From Gemmatimonadota bacterium (lineage in GTDB: Bacteria > Gemmatimonadota > Gemmatimonadetes > Gemmatimonadales > GWC2-71-9): 64,000 nucleotides of DNA. Below the pieces are notes generated by a model. It saw nothing but the letters and a program-made list of their open reading frames with translations, did no database searches and was not told where the DNA came from. Within the stretch, counting starts at the first letter, position 1. Each line of letters begins with the position of its first letter. Of the stretch, positions 11,074 to 63,427 are shown piece by piece. The stretch spans positions 1 to 64,000 of the forward strand of contig QHTT01000071.1 in the NCBI GenBank assembly GCA_003220935.1, given 5' to 3'. The translations under genes were made by a program, and so were the position numbers.

Positions 11074-12309
11074 ATGACCTCCACCGACCTGGCCGCGGCT
11101 TTCGCGCATGCGTTCGGCGCCCCCCCCTCCTCCGCCGGCCCCGTTCACGTGGTTCGCGCGCCCGGGCGCGTGAACTTGATCGGCGAGCACATCGACTACT
11201 GTGGCCTGCCCGTCTTTCCCATGGCTCTCCGGCAGAGCGTCCGCATCGCGTTTCAGCCGCGCTCGGAGCGAGAGACCCGCCTCGTCAACCGCGATTCGCG
11301 CTTCGCGCCCAGCGCCTTCGTGATGAGCGAGAGCATCCCGCCAGCTCCGGCGGGGGACTGGGGCAACTACGCCCGGGCGGCGGCCCGGGCCCTGGCCGAA
11401 CGCTTCCCGGACCTGCGGGGCGTCGACGCACTGGTGGACAGCGATCTCCCGATCGCCGCGGGGCTCAGCTCCTCGTCCGCGCTCGTCGTGGCCATGGCCC
11501 TCGCGCTCATGCACGCGAACGGGGTGACGGTGCCGTCGCTCGAGCTGATGGAACTCCTGGGCCGCGGCGAGCGCTACGTCGGCACCGCCGGCGGCGGCAT
11601 GGACCAGGCGATTATCCTCGGTGCGCGGGCCGGGTGCGCGTCACGGATCGACTTCCACCCGCTCCGGCTCACGCCCACCGCCGTGCCCGCCGACTGGCAG
11701 TTCCTCGTGGCGTGGAGCCTGGTGCCCGCCGAGAAGTCCGGGGCCGCCCGGCAGGCGTACAACGAGCGGACGCACGAGTGCGACGAGGCCCGGCGCCTCG
11801 TGGCCATGCGGCTCGGCCAGCGAGACGACATCACCTACCCCGCCCTGCTCGCGGCGGCCTCAGTCGAGCAGCTGCTCGAGCTGGCGGGTGCGAGGGCGAC
11901 CCTCTCCGGCGTGCTCTCGCGGCGGTTCCGCCACGTGGTCACAGAGGGAACACGCGTGCGCCAGGCGGAGGCCGCGATGGCCGCCCAAGACCTCGCGGCG
12001 TTCGGGCAACTGCTCGACGCGTCGCACCAGAGTCTGCGGGACGACTACGAGGTGAGCCACCCCGAGCTGGACCGGCTGGTGGAGCTGGCCCGGGAGGCGG
12101 GCGCGGCGGGCGCAAGACTCACGGGCGCCGGGTTCGGTGGCTCGATCGTGGGGCTGTGTCGCGCCGAGCGCGCGCCGGAGGTCAGGGACGCGCTGCGGGA
12201 CCGCTTCTACGCCCCACGCGGCGCGGCAGGCGACGTCGAGCGGTATTTGTTCAGGGCCGAGCCGTCGGCAGGTGCGGAGGTTCTGACCCCGGGCGCAAGC
12301 CCGGGGTGA
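11074..12309 (+). CDS. galK: Galactokinase
   Basis: This is a 411-residue GHMP-fold kinase that phosphorylates galactose at C1 with ATP (Leloir pathway). Motif 1 is PGRVNLIGEHIDY at residues about 30 to 42, motif 2 is GLSSSSALVVAMA near 130 (phosphate-binding loop), GTAGGGMDQA follows near 170, and motif 3 is LTGAGFGGS near 350. The final residues (TPGASPG) are encoded by a family A palindrome, so the native end has probably been extended or replaced. The last 103 bases overlap the convergent sigma-factor frame. The B element immediately upstream supplies its ribosome site. It fits with the GH109, GH123 and epimerase genes nearby. Confidence 0.93.
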   Translation: MTSTDLAAAFAHAFGAPPSSAGPVHVVRAPGRVNLIGEHIDYCGLPVFPMALRQSVRIAFQPRSERETRLVNRDSRFAPSAFVMSESIPPAPAGDWGNYARAAARALAERFPDLRGVDALVDSDLPIAAGLSSSSALVVAMALALMHANGVTVPSLELMELLGRGERYVGTAGGGMDQAIILGARAGCASRIDFHPLRLTPTAVPADWQFLVAWSLVPAEKSGAARQAYNERTHECDEARRLVAMRLGQRDDITYPALLAAASVEQLLELAGARATLSGVLSRRFRHVVTEGTRVRQAEAAMAAQDLAAFGQLLDASHQSLRDDYEVSHPELDRLVELAREAGAAGARLTGAGFGGSIVGLCRAERAPEVRDALRDRFYAPRGAAGDVERYLFRAEPSAGAEVLTPGASPG

Positions 12310-31461: not shown

Positions 31462-31463
31462 CG

Positions 31464-31548
31464 CGGCTGACCCCGGGCCGATGGCCCGGGGTAAACCCAA
31501 ACGGCGCCCCGGTTGGTCAACCCCGGGGCGCCGCCCCGGGGTCAGCCG
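31464..31548. repeat. Family A composite element between the exporter and DUF1854 genes
   Basis: Two palindromes in inverted orientation, GCGGCTGACCCCGGGCC...GGCCCGGGGT and ACCCCGGGGC...GCCCCGGGGTCAGCCG, are separated by about 25 bases. The outer ends (GCGGCTGACC and GGTCAGCCG) are inverted copies of one another. The same composite layout is at 44771-44846, and an inside-out version is at 63340-63427. Confidence 0.8.
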
Positions 31549-31568
31549 ACCCTTTCGAGGGAGGGGTT

Positions 31569-38497: not shown

Positions 38498-38526
38498 CAC
38501 TACAAGATACGTCGAGCAAGGGCGTA

Positions 38527-38690
38527 GCACGAAGCCGTCGCGCAAAGGCGTCGCGCCAAGGGCGTCACGCGAAGGCGTCCGACGTCTCTGCGTGCCGTTG
38601 TTGCGTGCCGTTGTTGCGTGCCGTTGTTGCGTGACGGTGTCGCGTGACGTTTTCGCGCGACGCCTTTGCTAGACGCCTTTCCTCAGTCTC
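38527..38690. repeat. Inverted arrays of a 13-bp tandem unit
   Basis: The right array has at least six consecutive 13-mers from 38589: TGCGTGCCGTTGT three times, then TGCGTGACGGTGT, CGCGTGACGTTTT and CGCGCGACGCCTT. The left array (38527-38580) consists of the opposite-strand version (AAGGCGTCGCGCC, AAGGCGTCCGACG and relatives). The arms can fold into a long imperfect hairpin. It fills the space between the NrnA start and the end of the permease pseudogene. Confidence 0.85.
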
Positions 38691-44239: not shown

Positions 44240-45348
44240 GGCAGCGTCTCCAACGACATGAGGTCGAGCACCGGATTGCCGAGGAACCGGGTGCGACCGG
44301 CGCGCACGCGGGCGGTGACCTGCACGGTCGCGAGCGGGGTGAGGGCATCGAGCTGGAGGCGCTTCGCCTCCGGCACGACGACGTAGACGAAGCCGCGCTC
44401 GGGCAGCGGTCCGCGCGCCAACAGGTAGGTCGCGCCGTTGGGGATGTCGGGCCGGAGCTCGTCCGCCTTCTGCACCGCGATGAACTGGAGCGTCCAGCGC
44501 AGCACCTGCCCCACGTAGCGCTGCGGGTCAGTGCGCAACTCGGCCGCCGTGACGCCGACCAGCACGCCGGCGGGTGCGGCCTGGAGGTCGCCGTTCTTCA
44601 CCCACCCATCGATCTCGACCCGTGTCCAGTCACCCGAACGGCCCAGCACCCGCAGCGGCGCCGCGGGGGCGAGCGTTCCCGTCGGCGGGCCCTCGGGCGC
44701 GCGGTATAGCACCGTGCGCCGCGCGGACTCGACGCGGCTGGGATCGGGGGCGCCGCCGCTCGTGTCCCCGCGGCTGACCCCGGGCCGGCGGCCCGGGGTG
44801 TCCAGGGTCCCCTCATCCCCGGGGCTCCGCCCCGGGGTCAGCCGCGCCTGAGCCGTATCTGAGTCGGCGGTCCCCGCCGCCCGCGAGCCCGCCACCTGCG
44901 CCACCGCCTCGACGTCGCCTCTTTGGACCCAGCCGGTGCGTGTCACGTGTACCCAGCGGTCCGTGTCACCCGCGTTGACCTTCGTGAGCAGAAAGCCCTG
45001 CGGCAGCTTCGCCACCAGCGCGCCCGCCGGGGAGGAGCGGAGGTTCTCCTCGGGCGCGCGGATCACTGCCAGATCGAATCCGGCGCGCGGCGTTGGGCCG
45101 ACCGACGTGGCGAAGATCCAGCCCTCGAGCGTGACGCCGAGCCAGTCGCCCTGCGCGTCGCCGCCCCCCGCTGAGACCAGGGCGCCCCGGGCGAGGCGCG
45201 CGAGGCGCTTGCCGCCCGCTTCCTGGAAGAACCAGGCGCCGTCGGTGGTGATGCGATAGCGCACTTGGGCGGCCAGCGGTGCATCCGGCGCGGACGGCGC
45301 GAGCCACAGGACAGCTGGTAGGGCACGGAGGGCCCGGCTAAATTGCAT
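44236..45348 (-). CDS. Secreted SH3-like domain protein with repeat-derived linker
   Basis: This is a 370-residue protein with a signal peptide (MQFSRALRALPAVLWL, cleavage near APLAAQ). Bacterial SH3-like units are seen at about residues 20 to 75, 78 to 130 and 195 to 235 (NLRSSPAGALVAKLP and VLYRAPEGPPTGTLAP types), followed by an OB-like C-terminal domain. The stretch encoding LTPGRSPGDEGTLDTPGRRP, near residues 165 to 190, is made of a family A composite repeat that stays in frame. The start codon lies only ten bases from the divergent gpmI start. The role may be cell-wall binding, but that is a guess. Confidence 0.82.
44771..44846. repeat. Family A composite element inside the SH3-protein gene
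   Basis: CGGCTGACCCCGGGCC-GGC-GGCCCGGGGT and CCCCGGGGC-TCC-GCCCCGGGGTCAGCCG are arranged as at 31464-31548. All possible stop codons in this strand are avoided, so it is translated as a Pro/Gly/Arg/Ser/Thr-rich linker. Confidence 0.85.
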
Positions 45349-45358
45349 CGCTCTCAAT

Positions 45359-46948
45359 ATGGCAAAGAGGCATGGGCCGCGCACCCCGGTCGTTCTGATC
45401 GTGCTCGATGGCTGGGGCTTCCGTCCTGGCCGGGAGGGAAACGCCATCGAGCTCGGGCGTACGCCCACATGGCACCGTCTCTGGGCGAACGCGCCGCGCA
45501 CGCTCCTCAACGCGTCCGGACTCGCCGTAGGACTCCCCGCCGGGCAAATCGGCAACAGTGAAGTGGGACACCTGAATCTCGGCGCCGGCCGCGTGGTGCC
45601 GCAGGACATCGTGCGCATCTCGCAGGCGATCGAGTCGGGCGAGTTCTTCCAGCTGCCACCGCTCGTCGAGCTGTGCCGCCGCGTCAAGCAGCGCGGCGCC
45701 ACGCTTCACCTCATCGGCCTGATCGGGAACGGCGGCGTGCACGCCCTCGACAAGCACCTCCTGGCCGCCATCCGGCTCGGCCATGTGCACGAGCTGCCCG
45801 TCGCGATCCACGCCTGGCTCGACGGGCGGGATACGCCGCCGCAGTCGGCGCTCGGGTTCATGCGGGAGCTGGTCGAGGGGATCGGGGATCGGGGATCGGG
45901 GATCGGGGGTGGCGGGGCCCGACCCCCGAGCCCCGACTCCCGAGCCCCAGTCGTCTCCACGGTGGTCGGTCGCTACTACGCCATGGACCGCGACAAACGC
46001 TGGGAGCGCACCAAGATCGCGTACGACGCGATGGTCCACGGCGTGGGCCAGCCCGCCCCGGATCCTGTGGCGGCGATCCGCGCGGCGTACGAGGCCGGCG
46101 GGTCGGACGAGTTCGTGAAGCCGCGCATCATTGCCGGAACGCCCCGCATCAGGAGCGGCGACGGGATCTTCTGCTTCAACTTCCGCGCCGACCGCATGCG
46201 GCAGATCGTGCGGGCCCTCGCGCTCCCCGGTTTCGACGCGTTCGACGCCGGCGCGCGGCCGACCGTGGAGCTCGTCACGATGACGCAATACGACGAAACG
46301 TTCCCGTTCCCGATCGCGTTCGGGCCGATGGTGCTGTCGCAGATCGTCGCCCAGGTGCTGTCGGACCAGGGCAAGACAATGTTCCGCACCGCCGAAACCG
46401 AGAAGTACGCCCACGTCACGTATTTCTTCAACGGCGGCTTCGAGGTGCCCTACCCCGGCGAGGAGCGGCTGCTCGTGCCTTCCCAGCAGGTGGCGACCTA
46501 CGACCTGATGCCGGAGATGAGCGCGCCCGGCGTCACCGACGTGCTGTGCCAGGCGATCACGGCCGGACACCACGATTTTATCCTGTGCAACTACGCCAAC
46601 GGAGACATGGTCGGCCACTCCGGGGTACTAGGCGCGGCGGTGCGGGCTGTGGAGACTGTGGACCACTGCCTCGCGCGGGTCGTGAAGACCGTCGAGCAGG
46701 CCGGCGCCACGCTGCTCGTCACGGCAGACCACGGCAATTGCGAGCTGATGATCGATCCGACGACCGACGGCCCGCACACCGCCCACACCACGAACCCAGT
46801 CCCCTTCCTTATTGTAGGTGGGGACGACGCGAAGACCCCGCTGCGCCACGGGGCCGCCCTGTGCGACGTCGGGCCCACCGTGCTGCGGATGCTGGGACTG
46901 GAACCGCCGCCCGAGATGACAGGGCGGGATCTGCGAGAGGTTACATGA
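45359..46948 (+). CDS. gpmI: 2,3-bisphosphoglycerate-independent phosphoglycerate mutase
   Basis: This is a 529-residue enzyme interconverting 3- and 2-phosphoglycerate with two manganese ions. Blocks include LIVLDGWGF (metal Asp), the catalytic Ser in GNSEVGHLNLGAGR near residue 67, HAWLDGRDTPP near 157, RYYAMDRDKRW near 206, and TADHGNCE near 460. An insertion of about 25 residues (GIGDRGSGIGGGGARPPSPD and following, near 173 to 197) is encoded by a repeat that normal GpmI lacks. The ATG has no clear ribosome site and only ten bases separate it from the divergent SH3-gene start; a TAAATT at 45339 could give a near-leaderless mRNA. Confidence 0.93.
   Translation: MAKRHGPRTPVVLIVLDGWGFRPGREGNAIELGRTPTWHRLWANAPRTLLNASGLAVGLPAGQIGNSEVGHLNLGAGRVVPQDIVRISQAIESGEFFQLPPLVELCRRVKQRGATLHLIGLIGNGGVHALDKHLLAAIRLGHVHELPVAIHAWLDGRDTPPQSALGFMRELVEGIGDRGSGIGGGGARPPSPDSRAPVVSTVVGRYYAMDRDKRWERTKIAYDAMVHGVGQPAPDPVAAIRAAYEAGGSDEFVKPRIIAGTPRIRSGDGIFCFNFRADRMRQIVRALALPGFDAFDAGARPTVELVTMTQYDETFPFPIAFGPMVLSQIVAQVLSDQGKTMFRTAETEKYAHVTYFFNGGFEVPYPGEERLLVPSQQVATYDLMPEMSAPGVTDVLCQAITAGHHDFILCNYANGDMVGHSGVLGAAVRAVETVDHCLARVVKTVEQAGATLLVTADHGNCELMIDPTTDGPHTAHTTNPVPFLIVGGDDAKTPLRHGAALCDVGPTVLRMLGLEPPPEMTGRDLREVT
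45876..45955. repeat. Family D palindromic repeat inside gpmI
   Basis: GGGGATC units (GGGGATCGGGGATCGGGG) face complementary-type units (CGAGCCCCGACTCCCGAGCC) around GGTGGCGGGGCCC. The element is in frame with gpmI and adds a Gly/Ser/Pro/Arg linker between conserved blocks of the phosphatase-like and transferase-like domains. Confidence 0.8.
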
Positions 46949-49361: not shown

Positions 49362-49781
49362 ATGCCGATCAGCTATCTTACGCGTATCGTTGAGTTTACC
49401 GCGACGCACCGCATCCGGCGCGCGGACTGGAGCGCCGAGCGGAATGCGGCCGAGTTCGGCAAGGCGGTTGTCGATCACAGCCACCGCTATCAGTGCCGCG
49501 TCACCGTGCAGGGGCAGCTGGTGCCGGAGGCGGGCGGGGTGATGAGCCTGCCGGCGCTCGACGCCCTGCTCGCCGAGGAAGTGACCGGGCGCCTCGCGGG
49601 GCGCAGCATCAACAACGCGCTCCCCGAGTTCGCGGACGGTCGCCATCTCGCGACGGGCGAAGCGCTGGCCGTGTACGTCTGGGAACGGCTCGCCCCACGG
49701 CTGCCCGAGGGCGTGACATTGCACGCCGTGCGCGTGCAGGAAGGGCCGCATATCTACTCCGAGTACTATGGCGAACCGTGA
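49362..49781 (+). CDS. PTPS/QueD-family protein lacking the catalytic cysteine
   Basis: This is a 139-residue tunnelling-fold protein. Zinc ligands are kept: His in FTATHRI and both His of DHSHRY (normally HGHNY). The place normally occupied by the catalytic Cys in FGKC reads FGKA, so classical 6-pyruvoyl-tetrahydropterin or 6-carboxytetrahydropterin synthesis is doubtful. Conserved Glu in VRVQEGPHIYSEY near the C-terminus remains. It sits between the transporter ATPase and FdhD, so it may handle a pterin-related compound linked with molybdenum cofactor; that is inference. Confidence 0.82.
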   Translation: MPISYLTRIVEFTATHRIRRADWSAERNAAEFGKAVVDHSHRYQCRVTVQGQLVPEAGGVMSLPALDALLAEEVTGRLAGRSINNALPEFADGRHLATGEALAVYVWERLAPRLPEGVTLHAVRVQEGPHIYSEYYGEP

Positions 49782-50601
49782 CCAGGAATCCCCGCCCTTA
49801 CGGACGGGGCCATCCTCCATAGCCCCGGGCGTCAGCCCGGGGCCGCCGGAGGCCCGCACACCCGGCTCCCGCCGGGGTCGGATGCTCGCCGACTCGGCCG
49901 CGGTGGAGGAGTGGCCGGTCTGGCTCGAGGTCAACGGCGAGCCGGCGGTGACGTGGATGTGCACGCCGGGCCAGCTCGAAGAACTGGCCACAGGGTGGCT
50001 CCACGGCGAGGGCTACATCGAGACGCTGGACGACCTCGTCAAGCTCCGCCCCTGCGCCACGGACCTGGGTTTCTGGGCGGAAGTGAAACCGGAGCGTGTG
50101 GCGCTAGTGAAGGGCGAGGACCGCCGCCGGGTGCTCGCCTCGGGGTGCGGCGCGGTATCCACATTCCTCGCCGATCCGCCGGCGGTACGGCACGCGGTCG
50201 CCCGGGGTGAGCCCCCACCACCCGAGATACAGCGGGCGCTCTTCAAGGAGCTGTTCGCCCGCGGCGTGCGCTACAACGAGACCGGCGGGATCCATGCGGC
50301 CGCGCTCACCGACAATGCGACGCTCCAGTTCCACGCCGAAGACATCGGGCGGCACAACGCGGTGGACAAGGTGATCGGTGCGGCGGTCATCGCGCGACAG
50401 CCGCTCGCCGGCCGGGGACTGCTCGTCACGGGTCGGATCTCGGCCGAGCTCGCGTACAAGGCGGCGCGCGCCGGGCTAGCCTACGTCGCGACCCCGAGCG
50501 TGCCGTCGACGCTCGCCCTCACCATCGCGCAGCGCTCCGGCATGGTGCTGGTGGGGCGGGCGGTGAGCGGAACCCCGCACATCCATCGGCCGGACGCATG
50601 A
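49768..50601 (+). CDS. fdhD: Formate dehydrogenase accessory sulfurtransferase FdhD
   Basis: This is a protein of up to 277 residues that transfers sulfur to bis-MGD of formate dehydrogenase. Key blocks are GWLHGEGYI near 75, the Cys motif ASGCGAVS near 124, ETGGIHAAAL near 165 and FHAEDIGRHNAVDKVIG near 183. The first 38 residues, including IAPGVSPGPPE, are encoded by palindromic repeats; the ATG at 49882 would remove them and give a more usual N-terminus. The ATG at 49768 overlaps the preceding gene by 14 bases. Confidence 0.9.
   Translation: MANRDQESPPLRTGPSSIAPGVSPGPPEARTPGSRRGRMLADSAAVEEWPVWLEVNGEPAVTWMCTPGQLEELATGWLHGEGYIETLDDLVKLRPCATDLGFWAEVKPERVALVKGEDRRRVLASGCGAVSTFLADPPAVRHAVARGEPPPPEIQRALFKELFARGVRYNETGGIHAAALTDNATLQFHAEDIGRHNAVDKVIGAAVIARQPLAGRGLLVTGRISAELAYKAARAGLAYVATPSVPSTLALTIAQRSGMVLVGRAVSGTPHIHRPDA
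49790..49844. repeat. Palindromes at the FdhD N-terminus
   Basis: CCCCGCCC-TTAC-GGACGGGG (49790-49809) and AGCCCCGGGC-GTCA-GCCCGGGG (49821-49842) are consecutive hairpins of the CCCATCCTGAAGG and family A types. They lie in the first codons of the long FdhD frame. Confidence 0.75.
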
Positions 50602-56257: not shown

Positions 56258-57991
56258 CTACATGCGCTTGTACTTGGGCCCGCTCCCGCCTTCCCGCGGC
56301 GTCCAGCGAGGCCCCAGGACGTCGGTCGCCTTGCAATCGATGCAGTTGGGCGCGTTCACCCGCAGGCCGCGGTCCACCCGCTCGTACACTCCTGCCGGAC
56401 ACAGACGCGCGTAAAAATCCGCCGCCTCAGGTGACACGTCCCGGCCGACGATGAGGTGCGTGGGGATGGTGTCGCGGGTCGCGTTCCCGGACTTGAACAC
56501 CCCGTCGACCTTGGAGAACGTGAGACGGCCGTCGGGAACAACGGGCCCCGGGCTGACGACTGGCCCCGGACTGACGCCCGGCCCCGGGCTGACGCCCAGC
56601 CCCGGGCTGACGCCCAGCCCCGGGCTGACGCCCAGCCCCGGGCTGACGCCCGGGGCTATGCGGCGTGGCACGTCCACATCGCGCGACATCGCGATCTTTC
56701 CGCCCGGGAAACGGCCCCCCGTGAGCGTCATGAGCCCGGCCTTGAGCCCGCCGGTGTAGAAGCCGTGCTTGAAGGCCAGGCGCATGTTCCGCGTGCGGTA
56801 CAGGTCGTGGATGATGAACGATGCGTTCACCATACGGTCGTAGTCACCGAGCCGCGCGGCGGATGGGTCCCCGTGTTTGAGCGCGGCGAACACGGCCCGC
56901 GCGGCGAACATCCCCGACTGCATCGCGTAGTGGATCCCCTTGAGCGACGGCACGTCCACGAAGCCGGCCGAGTCGCCGACGATCACCACACTGTCGCCCG
57001 AGCGCCGCGCCGGGACGGAGTAGTACCCCCCTTCGGGAATCGTCTTCGCGCCCCATTCGACCATCTCGCCGCCCTCCAGGTAGCGGCGGAACAGGGGGTG
57101 CAGCTTCATCCGCTGGAACAAGCCGTGTACGTCCAGCGCGCTATCCCGGTAATCGAGGCCTACCACGAGGCCGAGCGCCACGAGGTTCGGCGCGAGCGGG
57201 TACATGAAGCTCCCGCCGAAAGCGTCGCTCGCTAGCGGCCAGCCGAGCGTGTGGACGATCGTGCCCAGCGGGCGCTTGGTTTCCCAGATTTCTTTGACGC
57301 CGAGCGCGAAGATCTGCGGGTTCTCCGCCGTCACCTGCTGCCACTCGGACCACGCCTGCGCCAGCATCCCCCGCGTCCCCTCGGCGAGGACCGTGACTTG
57401 GGCGACGAGGTCGTTCGGCGCAAGGTAGTTGGCGAGCGGGTTGCCCGCACGGTCGAGCCCTGTGGCCGCCGTGCGCACGCCTGCCACCCTCGGGCCGTCC
57501 ACGAGCAGGCTCGCCGCCGGGAAGCCCGTGAAGATGTTCACCCCGAGCGCTTCGGCCTTCTCGCCCAGCCACCGCACGATCTCGCACAGCGACGCGACGT
57601 AGTTGCCCTTGTTGCGCATCGTTGGTGGAGTCGGAAGGCGCAGTCGCCTGTTGGCCGTCAACAGATACACCGCTTCGCCGCGAACCGGCGCGCGGAAGGG
57701 AAAGTCCGAATCATGCAGACCGGGGAACAGCTCGCGAAACGCCCGCGGGTTGACGACCGCGCCGGAAAGACAGTGCTCGCCGAGCGCGCCGGCCTTCTCG
57801 AGCACCCCAATGTTGAGCTCGGTGCCGTCTCGCTTGGCGAGCTGCGCTAGCTCGATCGCAGTCGCGAGGCCCGCGGGTCCGGCGCCCACGATCACCACGT
57901 CCAGCTCCATCCGGTCGCCCGCCCCCGGGGTGCCCACGGGCACGAGGAGCTTGTTCAGCGGCAAGGGCGGCTGGTATTGCGCCGGAATCAC
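56258..57991 (-). CDS. Electron transfer flavoprotein-ubiquinone oxidoreductase with tandem-repeat insert
   Basis: ETF-QO passes electrons from reduced ETF to the quinone pool at the membrane. The 577-residue protein has VVIVGAGPAGLATAIELAQL (FAD) near residue 32, GEHCLSGAVVNPRAF near 72, and VIVGDSAGFVDVPSLKGIHY near 335. Residues about 444 to 482 are a tandem repeat (GVSPGL units) encoded by family A-like 18-mers. The C-terminal cluster region has Cys531, Cys550 and Cys553, but the fourth ligand of the [4Fe-4S] site is Thr556 (NCIDCKATD instead of the usual CxxCxxC). It precedes etfA on the same strand. Confidence 0.92.
   Translation of the reverse strand: MIPAQYQPPLPLNKLLVPVGTPGAGDRMELDVVIVGAGPAGLATAIELAQLAKRDGTELNIGVLEKAGALGEHCLSGAVVNPRAFRELFPGLHDSDFPFRAPVRGEAVYLLTANRRLRLPTPPTMRNKGNYVASLCEIVRWLGEKAEALGVNIFTGFPAASLLVDGPRVAGVRTAATGLDRAGNPLANYLAPNDLVAQVTVLAEGTRGMLAQAWSEWQQVTAENPQIFALGVKEIWETKRPLGTIVHTLGWPLASDAFGGSFMYPLAPNLVALGLVVGLDYRDSALDVHGLFQRMKLHPLFRRYLEGGEMVEWGAKTIPEGGYYSVPARRSGDSVVIVGDSAGFVDVPSLKGIHYAMQSGMFAARAVFAALKHGDPSAARLGDYDRMVNASFIIHDLYRTRNMRLAFKHGFYTGGLKAGLMTLTGGRFPGGKIAMSRDVDVPRRIAPGVSPGLGVSPGLGVSPGLGVSPGPGVSPGPVVSPGPVVPDGRLTFSKVDGVFKSGNATRDTIPTHLIVGRDVSPEAADFYARLCPAGVYERVDRGLRVNAPNCIDCKATDVLGPRWTPREGGSGPKYKRM
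56545..56663. repeat. Tandem 18-bp array inside the ETF-QO gene
   Basis: The unit GCCCCGGGCTGACGCCCA recurs perfectly at least three times, with more divergent copies on the left side (CCCCGGACTGACGCCCGG and relatives) and an end unit like the ordinary family A palindrome. The unit length is a multiple of three, so copy-number change keeps the frame. Confidence 0.9.
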
Positions 57992-59886: not shown

Positions 59887-62129
59887 CAGAACTCCGCACT
59901 CACGCTCACCTGGAGCTGCCGCGGGAATCCCGGCGTGAGAAACCGCTGCACCGGCGTGCCGGGCGCGAGCGGGTTCTCGGCGAAGGTCCCGAAGCTCGGG
60001 TAACGCCGGTCCAGCACATTGCGCACCGAGCAGCGCACCTCGAACCGTTGCCACTCGAGGGTGAGCGACGCGTCGGCCGCCGCGTAGTCGGGGAGCCGGC
60101 GCGTCGTGTTCGCCTCGTCGCCCCGGAGCCACTGGCGGCCCACGTAGCGCCCGTCGATGCCGAGCCGCAGCGACGGACCGGACGCGCTGCCGACGACAAG
60201 CGGCACCGCAATCCCCGCATTCGCCCGGTGATCGGGAACAAGCGGAAGCGCGTTGCCGGAGACGACGACCTCCCCTGCTGGGTCGCGCGGAGTGGCGAGG
60301 TCTACGGTGCTGTGGAATGTCGCCGCGGTATATCCGTAATTCGCGTACGCCCGCAGCCCCCCGCCCCCCCTCCCCCCCCCGCGCCCCCTGTCAGGGCGGC
60401 TCGACCATTGGGCCCCGAGCTCCAGCCCGGCCCGGCGCGTCGCCCCGATGTTCTGGAAGTAGCCCGCAGTGAGTGTCGCAGCGACGAAGAAGATGTCGTC
60501 CCGGACGTCGGTCCAGTACACGTCGGCGCTCAAGTCCACACGGCCCGTGCGGCCGCGGAAGCGCCACCCCGTTTCGTATGTCGTGGCGACGACGGGTCGG
60601 AGGGCGGGATCGGGGCCGAGCGCGAACGGCAGCGGACACGCTGCAGCAGGGTCCGCGCAGCCGATCTCGACGAGCGCCGGCGCGCGGAACCCTCGGCTCA
60701 CCGACCCAAACAGCTCGTGCCCCGACGGCCCACGCCAGGTGAGCCCCACGCGTGGGCTGAATCGCCGGAAGATGTTGAGGCCGCTCTGGCCCGCATCCAA
60801 CAGGTCTTCGAACGGCACGCGGATGTAGTCGTAGCGCCCCGCGATGGTGGCCGTGAGGGACGGCGCGAGCGGCCAGTTGGCGCCGACGAAAGCGCCCAGG
60901 TCCACTTCGTTCGCGAGGACTGACTCCGTGAGCGAGTCCGGTGCCCCTGATCGGACCGCGTAGAGCCGCACCCCCGTGTGCTGGTAGGCGCCGTCCACAC
61001 CCGCAAGCCAACGCAGCGGGCGCGCCCTGAGAGAGAGTGTACCGGAGAGCTGCACCGCCCCTCCGCCGATGCGCTCGCGGTTGCGCTCGCGCGTATCCGG
61101 TGGGCTCGCGTTCTTGTTGAACTGGTCCGCGGTAAGCGTTCGGCCGAAGGCGTTCACCGCGACCTGCACGCGGCTCCCCCCGAGCAAGCGGTGCGCGTTC
61201 AGGGTGACCAGATGGGCCTGCGGGGCGAAGTAGTCGCCGCTGGTGAAGTTCACACGGGGGGCGACGGCGTACACGCTCTCGGGCAGGCTGCCCGCCTGGT
61301 AGATGCGGTTGTCCGCTGCCGCGTAGCTGAGCGTCGCGTCCCACGTTCCCGTGTTCACTCCGACCTTGCCGAATAGCGTGCCGATGCGGCTCCGCGTGAG
61401 CGCGCGCCAGCCGTCTTCGTGCTCGTAGCGCGCCCCGACGTAGTAGTCCCACATTCCCCGGCGATCGCCGGCGTGCGCCTTGAGCTCGTAGCGCCCGAAG
61501 CTGCCTCCCGAGACCTCGACCTCGCGGTCGGCCGGCGTGGCGCCGCGGCGGGTCACCAGGTTTACTGCGGCGCCGAGCGAGTTCCGCCCGAGCAGCACCG
61601 ACGGACCATACGTCACCTCCACATGGTCCACGTCCTCGAGCGGCAGCAGGTCGAAGTTCACCTCGTGAGCGTCAGGCTCGTTCACCCGCACGCCGTCCAG
61701 GTACACAGTCACTCCCTGGGGGAGCCCGATCGTCGGGGAGACCTGAAATCCGCGGAGCGTCACGTCCAACTCGCTGGGCGCGCCCAGCTCGTCCGCCACC
61801 GTGACACCCGGCAGCTGCTCGAGCGCGTCCGCGAGCGAACGGACGCCGCGCGCATCGAGGTCCGCCGCGCTGAGTGTGGCGGTGCGGCCCGCGAGCCCCC
61901 GTGCCAGCTCGCGCACGGTAGGGAGCCGGACGCCGGTCACGACGACCGGGGGCAGAGTGTCGGTGGGGACGGAGTCGGGCTGTTGGGCCCCAGCGGGCGG
62001 GGGAAGCAGCGCGAGCAGTAGTGCGCCCTTCAGCAAACGCGGAAGTCGGAACGCGGAACGCGGAACAGAAGACGAGCGCACTGGTGGCCTCGTCCTACTG
62101 TTCCGCGTTCCGAGTTCCGCGTTCCGCAT
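59886..62129 (-). CDS. TonB-dependent outer membrane receptor
   Basis: This is a protein of up to 747 residues. After a leader (LKGALLLALLPPPAGAQ) it has a plug (VVVTGVRLPTVREL, LADALEQLPGVTV, TVYLDGVRVNEPDAHEVNFD, LGRNSLGAAVNLVTRRG) and a beta barrel ending in the canonical Phe (LQVSVSAEF). The TonB box lies near PPVVVTG. The ligand is unknown. The first 30 or so residues from the ATG at 62129 are encoded by an inverted repeat (RNAELGTRNS); a GTG at 62081 gives a more ordinary leader. It is on the same strand as the acyl-CoA dehydrogenase. Confidence 0.9.
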   Translation of the reverse strand: MRNAELGTRNSRTRPPVRSSSVPRSAFRLPRLLKGALLLALLPPPAGAQQPDSVPTDTLPPVVVTGVRLPTVRELARGLAGRTATLSAADLDARGVRSLADALEQLPGVTVADELGAPSELDVTLRGFQVSPTIGLPQGVTVYLDGVRVNEPDAHEVNFDLLPLEDVDHVEVTYGPSVLLGRNSLGAAVNLVTRRGATPADREVEVSGGSFGRYELKAHAGDRRGMWDYYVGARYEHEDGWRALTRSRIGTLFGKVGVNTGTWDATLSYAAADNRIYQAGSLPESVYAVAPRVNFTSGDYFAPQAHLVTLNAHRLLGGSRVQVAVNAFGRTLTADQFNKNASPPDTRERNRERIGGGAVQLSGTLSLRARPLRWLAGVDGAYQHTGVRLYAVRSGAPDSLTESVLANEVDLGAFVGANWPLAPSLTATIAGRYDYIRVPFEDLLDAGQSGLNIFRRFSPRVGLTWRGPSGHELFGSVSRGFRAPALVEIGCADPAAACPLPFALGPDPALRPVVATTYETGWRFRGRTGRVDLSADVYWTDVRDDIFFVAATLTAGYFQNIGATRRAGLELGAQWSSRPDRGRGGGRGGGGLRAYANYGYTAATFHSTVDLATPRDPAGEVVVSGNALPLVPDHRANAGIAVPLVVGSASGPSLRLGIDGRYVGRQWLRGDEANTTRRLPDYAAADASLTLEWQRFEVRCSVRNVLDRRYPSFGTFAENPLAPGTPVQRFLTPGFPRQLQVSVSAEF

Positions 62130-62131
62130 TC
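62039..62131. repeat. Family E inverted repeat (GCGGAACGCGGAAC type) at the receptor start
   Basis: GGAACGCGGAACGCGGAACA on the left and TGTTCCGCGTTCCGAGTTCC on the right form long imperfect arms around about 30 bases. The right arm contains the ATG of the long receptor frame. Confidence 0.8.
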
Positions 62132-63339: not shown

Positions 63340-63427
63340 AGAAACCCCGGGGCGCCGCCCCGGGGTCAGCCGCCCCAAATCGGTCGCGGCGTGGCTGACC
63401 CCGGGCCGGTGGCCCGGGGTCTCAAAC
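63340..63427. repeat. Family A composite element, inside-out orientation
   Basis: ACCCCGGGGC...GCCCCGGGGTCAGCCGC is followed by GCGGC-type and GTGGCTGACCCCGGGCC...GGCCCGGGGT. Here the GTCAGCC/GGCTGAC ends face inward, the reverse of 31464-31548. It separates the dehydrogenase start from the phosphoesterase end. Confidence 0.8.

Follow-up and report, generated by a model that had tools for sequence, protein, structure and literature searches.

REPs lie mostly between genes, the intragenic form being a described minority, and the classic case of palindromes residing in frame is that of the Rickettsia palindromic elements (RPEs). What characterizes REP elements is a hairpin together with a tag (PMC8266576). 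Accounts exist both of RAYT-REP systems and of what the tag does in them (PMC8266576, TnpAREP), as well as of REPINs (Bertels & Rainey 2011, PMC3116915). Di Nocera et al. 2013 reported tagged REPs (GTAG/CGTC) inside ORFs, often those of replication, repair and tRNA-related genes, as well as RAYT genes flanked by REPs and, in Thauera and Rickettsia conorii, grouped intragenic repeats that encode 43-82 amino acids; in recB, two Xanthomonas species carry different REPs at nearly the same position (PMC3733652). The hosts of the Rickettsia elements include DnaE and tRNA-related genes, and two of these elements, RPE-4 and RPE-6, are CGTC-tagged and have no linked transposase (PMC3733652).

The locus described here is found in a 64,000-nucleotide stretch of Gemmatimonadota DNA, which we refer to as the window. 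Its genome is labeled G000, the genomes of relatives are G001-G004, G014, G027 and G028, and C and L numbers denote contigs and loci, respectively. The closest named relatives are largely soil metagenome-assembled genomes (MAGs). Very probably, the tandem array in the ETF-QO gene of the window is an in-frame intragenic REP that has been expanded in place. The host gene and the components of the array are as follows.

56258..57991, minus strand: host gene of electron transfer flavoprotein-ubiquinone oxidoreductase (ETF-QO), complete, 577 aa, identified by Pfam, pig ETF-QO and a model match
56528..56655, minus strand: REP-derived tandem array, the founding REP followed by 18-bp units, established by TRF and shuffles; present as an array in none of the relatives examined
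56656..56659, minus strand: unpaired 5' tag ATAG of the founding REP, identified by the tag consensus [AC]T[AG]G of 29 contexts
56636..56655, minus strand: hairpin of the founding REP, CCCCGGGC-GTCA-GCCCGGGG, the sole complete palindrome within the array
56618-56635, 56600-56617, 56582-56599, 56564-56581 and 56546-56563, minus strand: units 2-6, 18 bp each, of which units 2-4 are identical
56528..56545, minus strand: CCCGTTGTTCCCGACGGC, a decayed seventh unit or the native end of the linker, which resembles the unexpanded sequence of G001 and G004

A domain search, the match to the pig enzyme and a predicted model show that the FAD, ubiquinone-binding and 4Fe-4S domains of the host ETF-QO are all present and intact. 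The ORF matches the Pfam families ETFQO_UQ-bd (PF21162, 8.6e-27) and Fer4_ETF_QO (PF05187, 2e-11) and pig ETF-QO (2GMH, E 6.2e-93), the TM-score of the predicted model against 2gmh_A is 0.83, and C531, C550 and C553 are invariant cysteines in the alignment. The array is located in the interdomain linker ahead of the Fe-S domain. Aligned with 2GMH, this linker falls between the 4Fe-4S domain of pig ETF-QO and its membrane-side helices. In the AlphaFold2 model, which was built from 38 sequences, the enzyme folds (mean pLDDT 81, pTM 0.86) and residues 450-480 are without structure (pLDDT of about 34). The array-bearing linker is thus predicted to be disordered.

TRF finds the 107-bp array at 56545-56651 with a period of 18, 5.9 copies and a score of 179. 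The best scores in the shuffle controls on the gene were 97 for 1000 dinucleotide shuffles and 79 for 1000 codon permutations. The array consists of six 18-bp units, three of which are identical, and a decayed seventh. In the coding direction, the series reads CCGGGCGTCAGCCCGGGG, CTGGGCGTCAGCCCGGGG three times, CCGGGCGTCAGTCCGGGG, CCAGTCGTCAGCCCGGGG and the decayed CCCGTTGTTCCCGACGGC, and the decay of the units increases toward the 3' end of the gene. The first-pass annotation had described an 18-bp tandem array with at least three perfect 18-mers in an ETF-QO linker ahead of the Fe-S domain, with which the TRF score, Pfam and 2GMH agree; exactly three units turn out to be identical. Its statement that residues 444-482 are translated from the array is right as to translation and needs a correction at the start, as the GVSPGL/GVSPGP repeats occupy residues of about 446-482. 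The array contributes approximately 30 extra amino acids. The 5' tag is present only in the first unit, and the tag-less units downstream of it are local copies.

The parent element of the array is a REP, in which a 5' tag ATAG/ATGG precedes the hairpin CCCCGGGC-GTCA-GCCCGGGG. The hairpin of a single REP has a 9-bp stem and a 4-nt loop (-14 kcal/mol as DNA, z -5.7), and the CGTC in the element spans stem and loop and is not at the element's end. There are 19 copies of the GTCA flavor in G000 (10 exact and 9 with one mismatch) and 0 matches to the reversed control pattern, whereas palindromes of the general type number 71 (0-1 in the control). E. coli REPs number hundreds, so the copy number of the GTCA flavor is low by comparison. 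The consensus of the 5' tag over 29 GTCA-flavor contexts is [AC]T[AG]G (ATAG/ATGG), which is related to, but not identical with, GTAG. Other palindrome flavors in the same genomes are tagged CTGA or GGCTGA, every flavor having its own tag. Most GTCA-flavor loci of G000 are found inside ORFs of conserved genes and they are not mainly intergenic, a location that does not exclude membership in the REPs. The window itself contains another exact copy of the parent 20-mer, which bears out the earlier proposal that the unit comes from a palindrome found elsewhere, and several palindromes of other flavors.

49819..49842, plus strand: second copy, tag ATAG and the identical 20-mer (49823-49842), located in the N-terminal extension of an FdhD-family gene (49768-50601), where it is read in frame as IAPGVSPG
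12287..12306, plus strand: palindrome of another flavor, CCCCGGGC-GCAA-GCCCGGGG, from a pattern search
31462..31552, no strand: inverted REP pair (REPIN-like) of a third flavor, tag GGCTGA, from a palindrome and tag search
44769..44848, no strand: inverted REP pair of the GGCTGA flavor (REPIN-like), from the same type of search
63341..63423, no strand: inverted REP pair of the GGCTGA flavor (REPIN-like), from the same type of search

Other short tandem arrays in the window, at 38510-38662, 45877-45948 and 62036-62131, have 13-bp and 7-bp units and are unrelated to the REP.

Genes of Y1 (RAYT-like) transposases were sought in ten genomes, and the palindromes flanking them were counted within 700 bp. 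All 8 RAYTs of the WHT class are flanked by palindromes, compared to 1 of the 11 others (p = 1.2e-4). This one exception, the non-WHT Y1_Tnp gene G000:C124:107623-107958, has palindromes on one side only, with two exact GTCA copies at 273 and 539 bp. The WHT-class RAYT of G027:C59 has GTGA/GTCA-type copies on both sides, and no WHT-class RAYT of the exact GTCA flavor was found in G000, which is an 85% complete MAG. Owing to long branches and two out-of-frame rows (L081 and L083), the RAYT tree was used only via motif classes; L095 is a further Y1 match of a different class and L094 lacks a clean protein. The pattern of flanking sequences suggests mobilization by RAYTs as the likely route of the palindromes, with the cognate enzyme of G000 being only a candidate. 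Three other loci are worth describing. The WHT-class RAYT L109 (G000:C92:3402-3737) has GGCTGA-flavor palindromes on both sides. At L115 (G003:C58:38885-39640), a WHT-class RAYT precedes GCAA-type REPs that are arranged head to tail at a 52-bp spacing. The region upstream of the C124 Y1 transposase (L107, G000:C124:108078-108516) contains a nest of diverged palindromes with a GTCA-like loop and different stems and a 30-bp tandem array.

The first-pass annotation had proposed a comparison of the element's copy number in the ETF-QO genes of relatives. These genes contain 0 or 1 element, and the array is present in G000 only. Measured from D438 to P486 in the ETF-QO alignment, the linker of G000 has 47 aa. 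In Gemmatimonadota that carry one REP it has 16-18 aa, and in most of those that lack the element 14 aa. At the same codons, ATAGCCCCGGGCGTGAGCCCGGGG is present once in G004 and, slightly decayed, in G001. A different palindrome, ACCCCGGGCTTGCGCCCGGGGTCA, occupies the site in G003, G028 and L209, with a slightly decayed form in G014, and L202 and L208 carry a palindrome of the ACCCCGGGCTTGCGCCCGGGGTCA type in the opposite orientation. Neither type is found at this site in G002, which belongs to the same genus, and more distant relatives have no element. With no element in the outgroups, a single copy in several sisters and the array in G000 only, these findings are in agreement with the earlier suggestion that a dispersed palindrome was inserted and then expanded in frame. 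Both the flavor and the orientation of the resident palindrome differ between sister species. Furthermore, G000 and G003 are sisters in the ETF-QO core tree (100/97) and carry different palindromes, and hence the flavor at this site has switched between close species. A single REP is 20 nt long but adds a net 6-12 nt to ETF-QO, and so it did not arrive by clean insertion.

The same element is found in frame in other genes of G000, namely those of PurH (C14), GidA-family TrmFO (C18), a DnaA-like protein (C37), cytochrome c (C39), a GH38 glycosidase (C40), PanC (C67) and LeuRS (C76), the FdhD-family gene of the window (49823), a C119 gene, and the C-terminus of DnaE (C43), which was assigned by sequence. 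The C119 host gene, taken as a raw frame, has no Pfam identification. Only homology-backed in-gene copies were counted. A codon-usage classifier of genic and intergenic copies was too weak, as it missed the homology-shown copies in ETF-QO, LeuRS and TrmFO. Besides ETF-QO, the REP is multiplied in seven genes, and the in-gene periods are 18 (ETF-QO, TrmFO and DnaA-like), 21 (PurH, GH38, PanC and C119) and 24 (DnaE). All eight are divisible by three, for which the chance is 1.5e-4 if periods are free, whereas the periods of non-genic arrays include 14, 19, 22 and 23, none of which is. The DnaA-like protein (L145, G000:C37:219-2333) is a single chain with two Bac_DnaA ATPase domains.

The element is read in at least five frames, which result in the peptides APGVSPG, SPGREPG, PGLTPG, PGLRPG and PRADAR in unrelated proteins. 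No gene carrying the element was seen to use the frame in which the tag supplies a TAG, and the C119 gene, in whose frame a TGA would arise from the standard loop, carries the loop variant GTAA. Taken together, these observations mean that what spreads is the DNA unit, with an open frame as its only filter. With so many frames in use, selection for one peptide was rejected. In G001, G002, G004, G014 and G028, the linkers of DnaE, cytochrome c and the DnaA-like protein (L182, L185, L187 and L190-L194) contain Gly-rich triplets, GGT GGA GGT, where G000 has REPs, which shows that these linkers are tolerant and change fast.

These data bear directly on the possibility that selection acted on the repeat as a part of the protein, in which case a longer hinge of the Gly/Ser/Pro type moves the Fe-S domain relative to the membrane-bound part and the copy number tunes this movement. 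Such a hinge would fit the position of the array exactly within the interdomain linker, a unit length that preserves the frame, and the poly-Gly triplets with which sister species fill other linkers. However, the ETF-QO linker of the relatives examined is just 13-20 residues long, and the genes with the element have the DNA unit in common and not the peptide. No sign of peptide-level selection was found, and we consider this explanation unlikely.

A role at the level of nucleic acid, in which REP hairpins in mRNA or DNA attenuate, stabilize or terminate etf transcription or bind gyrase, is distinctly improbable. The RNA of the array does fold at -97 kcal/mol (z -3.2), a single REP is a strong DNA hairpin, and such roles of REPs have been described in other bacteria (PMC3733652). 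Nevertheless, the array is within the coding sequence of what is apparently the last gene of the etf cluster and a U-run is absent, the element occurs in many unrelated genes in both orientations, and related species lack it at the ETF-QO site. An artefact of metagenome assembly is, on indirect evidence, highly improbable. The assembly is incomplete and consists of 154 contigs, but several substitutions distinguish the units, a usual short read would span the array, the contig runs on for 34 kb past it, seven other genes of G000 contain independent arrays that differ in unit sequence and in period, and single copies are found at orthologous sites in other assemblies. Finally, ordinary slippage in GC-rich DNA that resembles a palindrome by chance and has no link to a mobile element is extremely improbable, for even though high-GC linkers and native 'APGV' codons can approach the palindrome (for example, in PanC of G001, G002 and G014), exact 20-mers with a conserved 5' tag are found at 10 places in G000 compared to 0 for the reversed control, and copies adjoin RAYT-like genes.

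The preferred explanation is an in-frame REP expanded in place, with the following probable history. The comparison of relatives shows that a tagged palindrome came to occupy the variable ETF-QO linker in the ancestor of the genus or slightly earlier, with only in-frame outcomes surviving. The palindromes would have spread by means of the RAYT-type HUH/tyrosine transposases whose genes they flank, and the resident copy would have been swapped now and then for one of another flavor. In the species of G000 only, the palindrome then underwent 18-bp head-to-tail duplication that omitted the tag; this would have proceeded via replication slippage or unequal exchange on the hairpin, with selection removing the steps that broke the frame. 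If slippage took place on the longest internal repeat (CCCGGG, at a distance of 12 bp), units of 12 bp would be expected, and the fact that the main periods are different counts against it. The product is a disordered 30-residue filler, which ETF-QO probably tolerates. The tandem-unit pattern of this REP family occurs 10 times in G000, whereas 101 other genomes of the family lack it. Loss of mismatch repair and loss of an SbcD-type hairpin nuclease were rejected as causes of this burst, as G000 has an intact MutS1 and an SbcD-like gene on a par with that of the relatives.

The flavor of single REPs also varies at other coding sites. The PurH site is of the GTCA flavor in G002 and GCAA in G003, the LeuRS site is GTCA/GTGA in G000 and G004 and GCAA in G003 and G028, and the TrmFO site is GTCA-like in G004 and GCAA in G002 and G028. 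The PanC and DnaA-like sites of G003 contain a GTCA copy with one mismatch. In PanC, REP sequence takes the place of the native 'APGVxPxY' codons with no change in length in G000 and G003, and this is followed by a 21-bp duplication in G000 (L104, L177, L179-L181, L183 and L186). The native motif appears to have been converted into REP sequence. The net gain of a single REP in ETF-QO, TrmFO, LeuRS and PurH is about 6-15 nt, a small value that gene conversion between dispersed copies and re-insertion with a loss of flanking codons would both explain. The earlier reading is thus refined in three respects: the element is a tagged REP of a type associated with RAYTs, native codons were replaced as well as added, and at least seven other genes are expanded.

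A tentative and rather doubtful extension of these findings is that palindrome families overwrite one another at fixed sites of housekeeping genes. Homology-guided copying, driven by a transposase or by repair, would install the currently active flavor over a resident REP or, as in PanC, over a native REP-like stretch, and one species would now be multiplying it in frame. If this is true, the linkers of essential proteins would evolve again and again through overwriting and in-frame multiplication. Bacterial linkers are usually thought to grow by slow indels, whereas here a mobile palindrome repeatedly supplies and lengthens the linkers of essential enzymes in one lineage. As the single-copy, other-flavor and empty states are all found in sister genomes, the path from insertion to expansion can be read step by step. 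Also of note is that the expanded loci are candidate strain markers.

A literature search found no relevant paper on REPs of Gemmatimonadota, no account of tag-less REP units multiplied in frame across many genes of one genome, and none of one REP flavor giving way to another at fixed coding sites of Gemmatimonadota. Neither 'Gemmatimonas' nor 'tandem duplication' occurs in the text on the GTAG/CGTC REPs (PMC3733652). Compared to the latter, the single REPs of G000 have a tag, ATAG/ATGG, that is not a strict GTAG, and they have multiplied as tag-less units of 18, 21 or 24 bp in eight genes of one genome. Similar to RPE-1, RPE-4 and RPE-6, with which they were compared by description only, the Gemmatimonadota palindromes are in frame in functional protein genes, but unlike RPEs they are associated with RAYTs and expand as micro-tandem arrays. 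They share with REPINs and REPtrons a hairpin with an asymmetric 5' tag, inverted REP pairs elsewhere in the genome and, in the case of sister flavors, an HUH/Y1 gene flanked by matching palindromes, whereas the GTCA flavor is mostly found as singletons or tandem arrays in coding sequence and not as intergenic inverted pairs. As in in-frame bacterial minisatellites, the period is divisible by three and a low-complexity linker is encoded, but the unit of G000 derives from a dispersed mobile palindrome that can be traced in relatives. In summary, REPs inside genes are known. The earlier reports do not extend to a burst of in-frame expansion across a whole genome or to an exchange of REP types at fixed coding sites.
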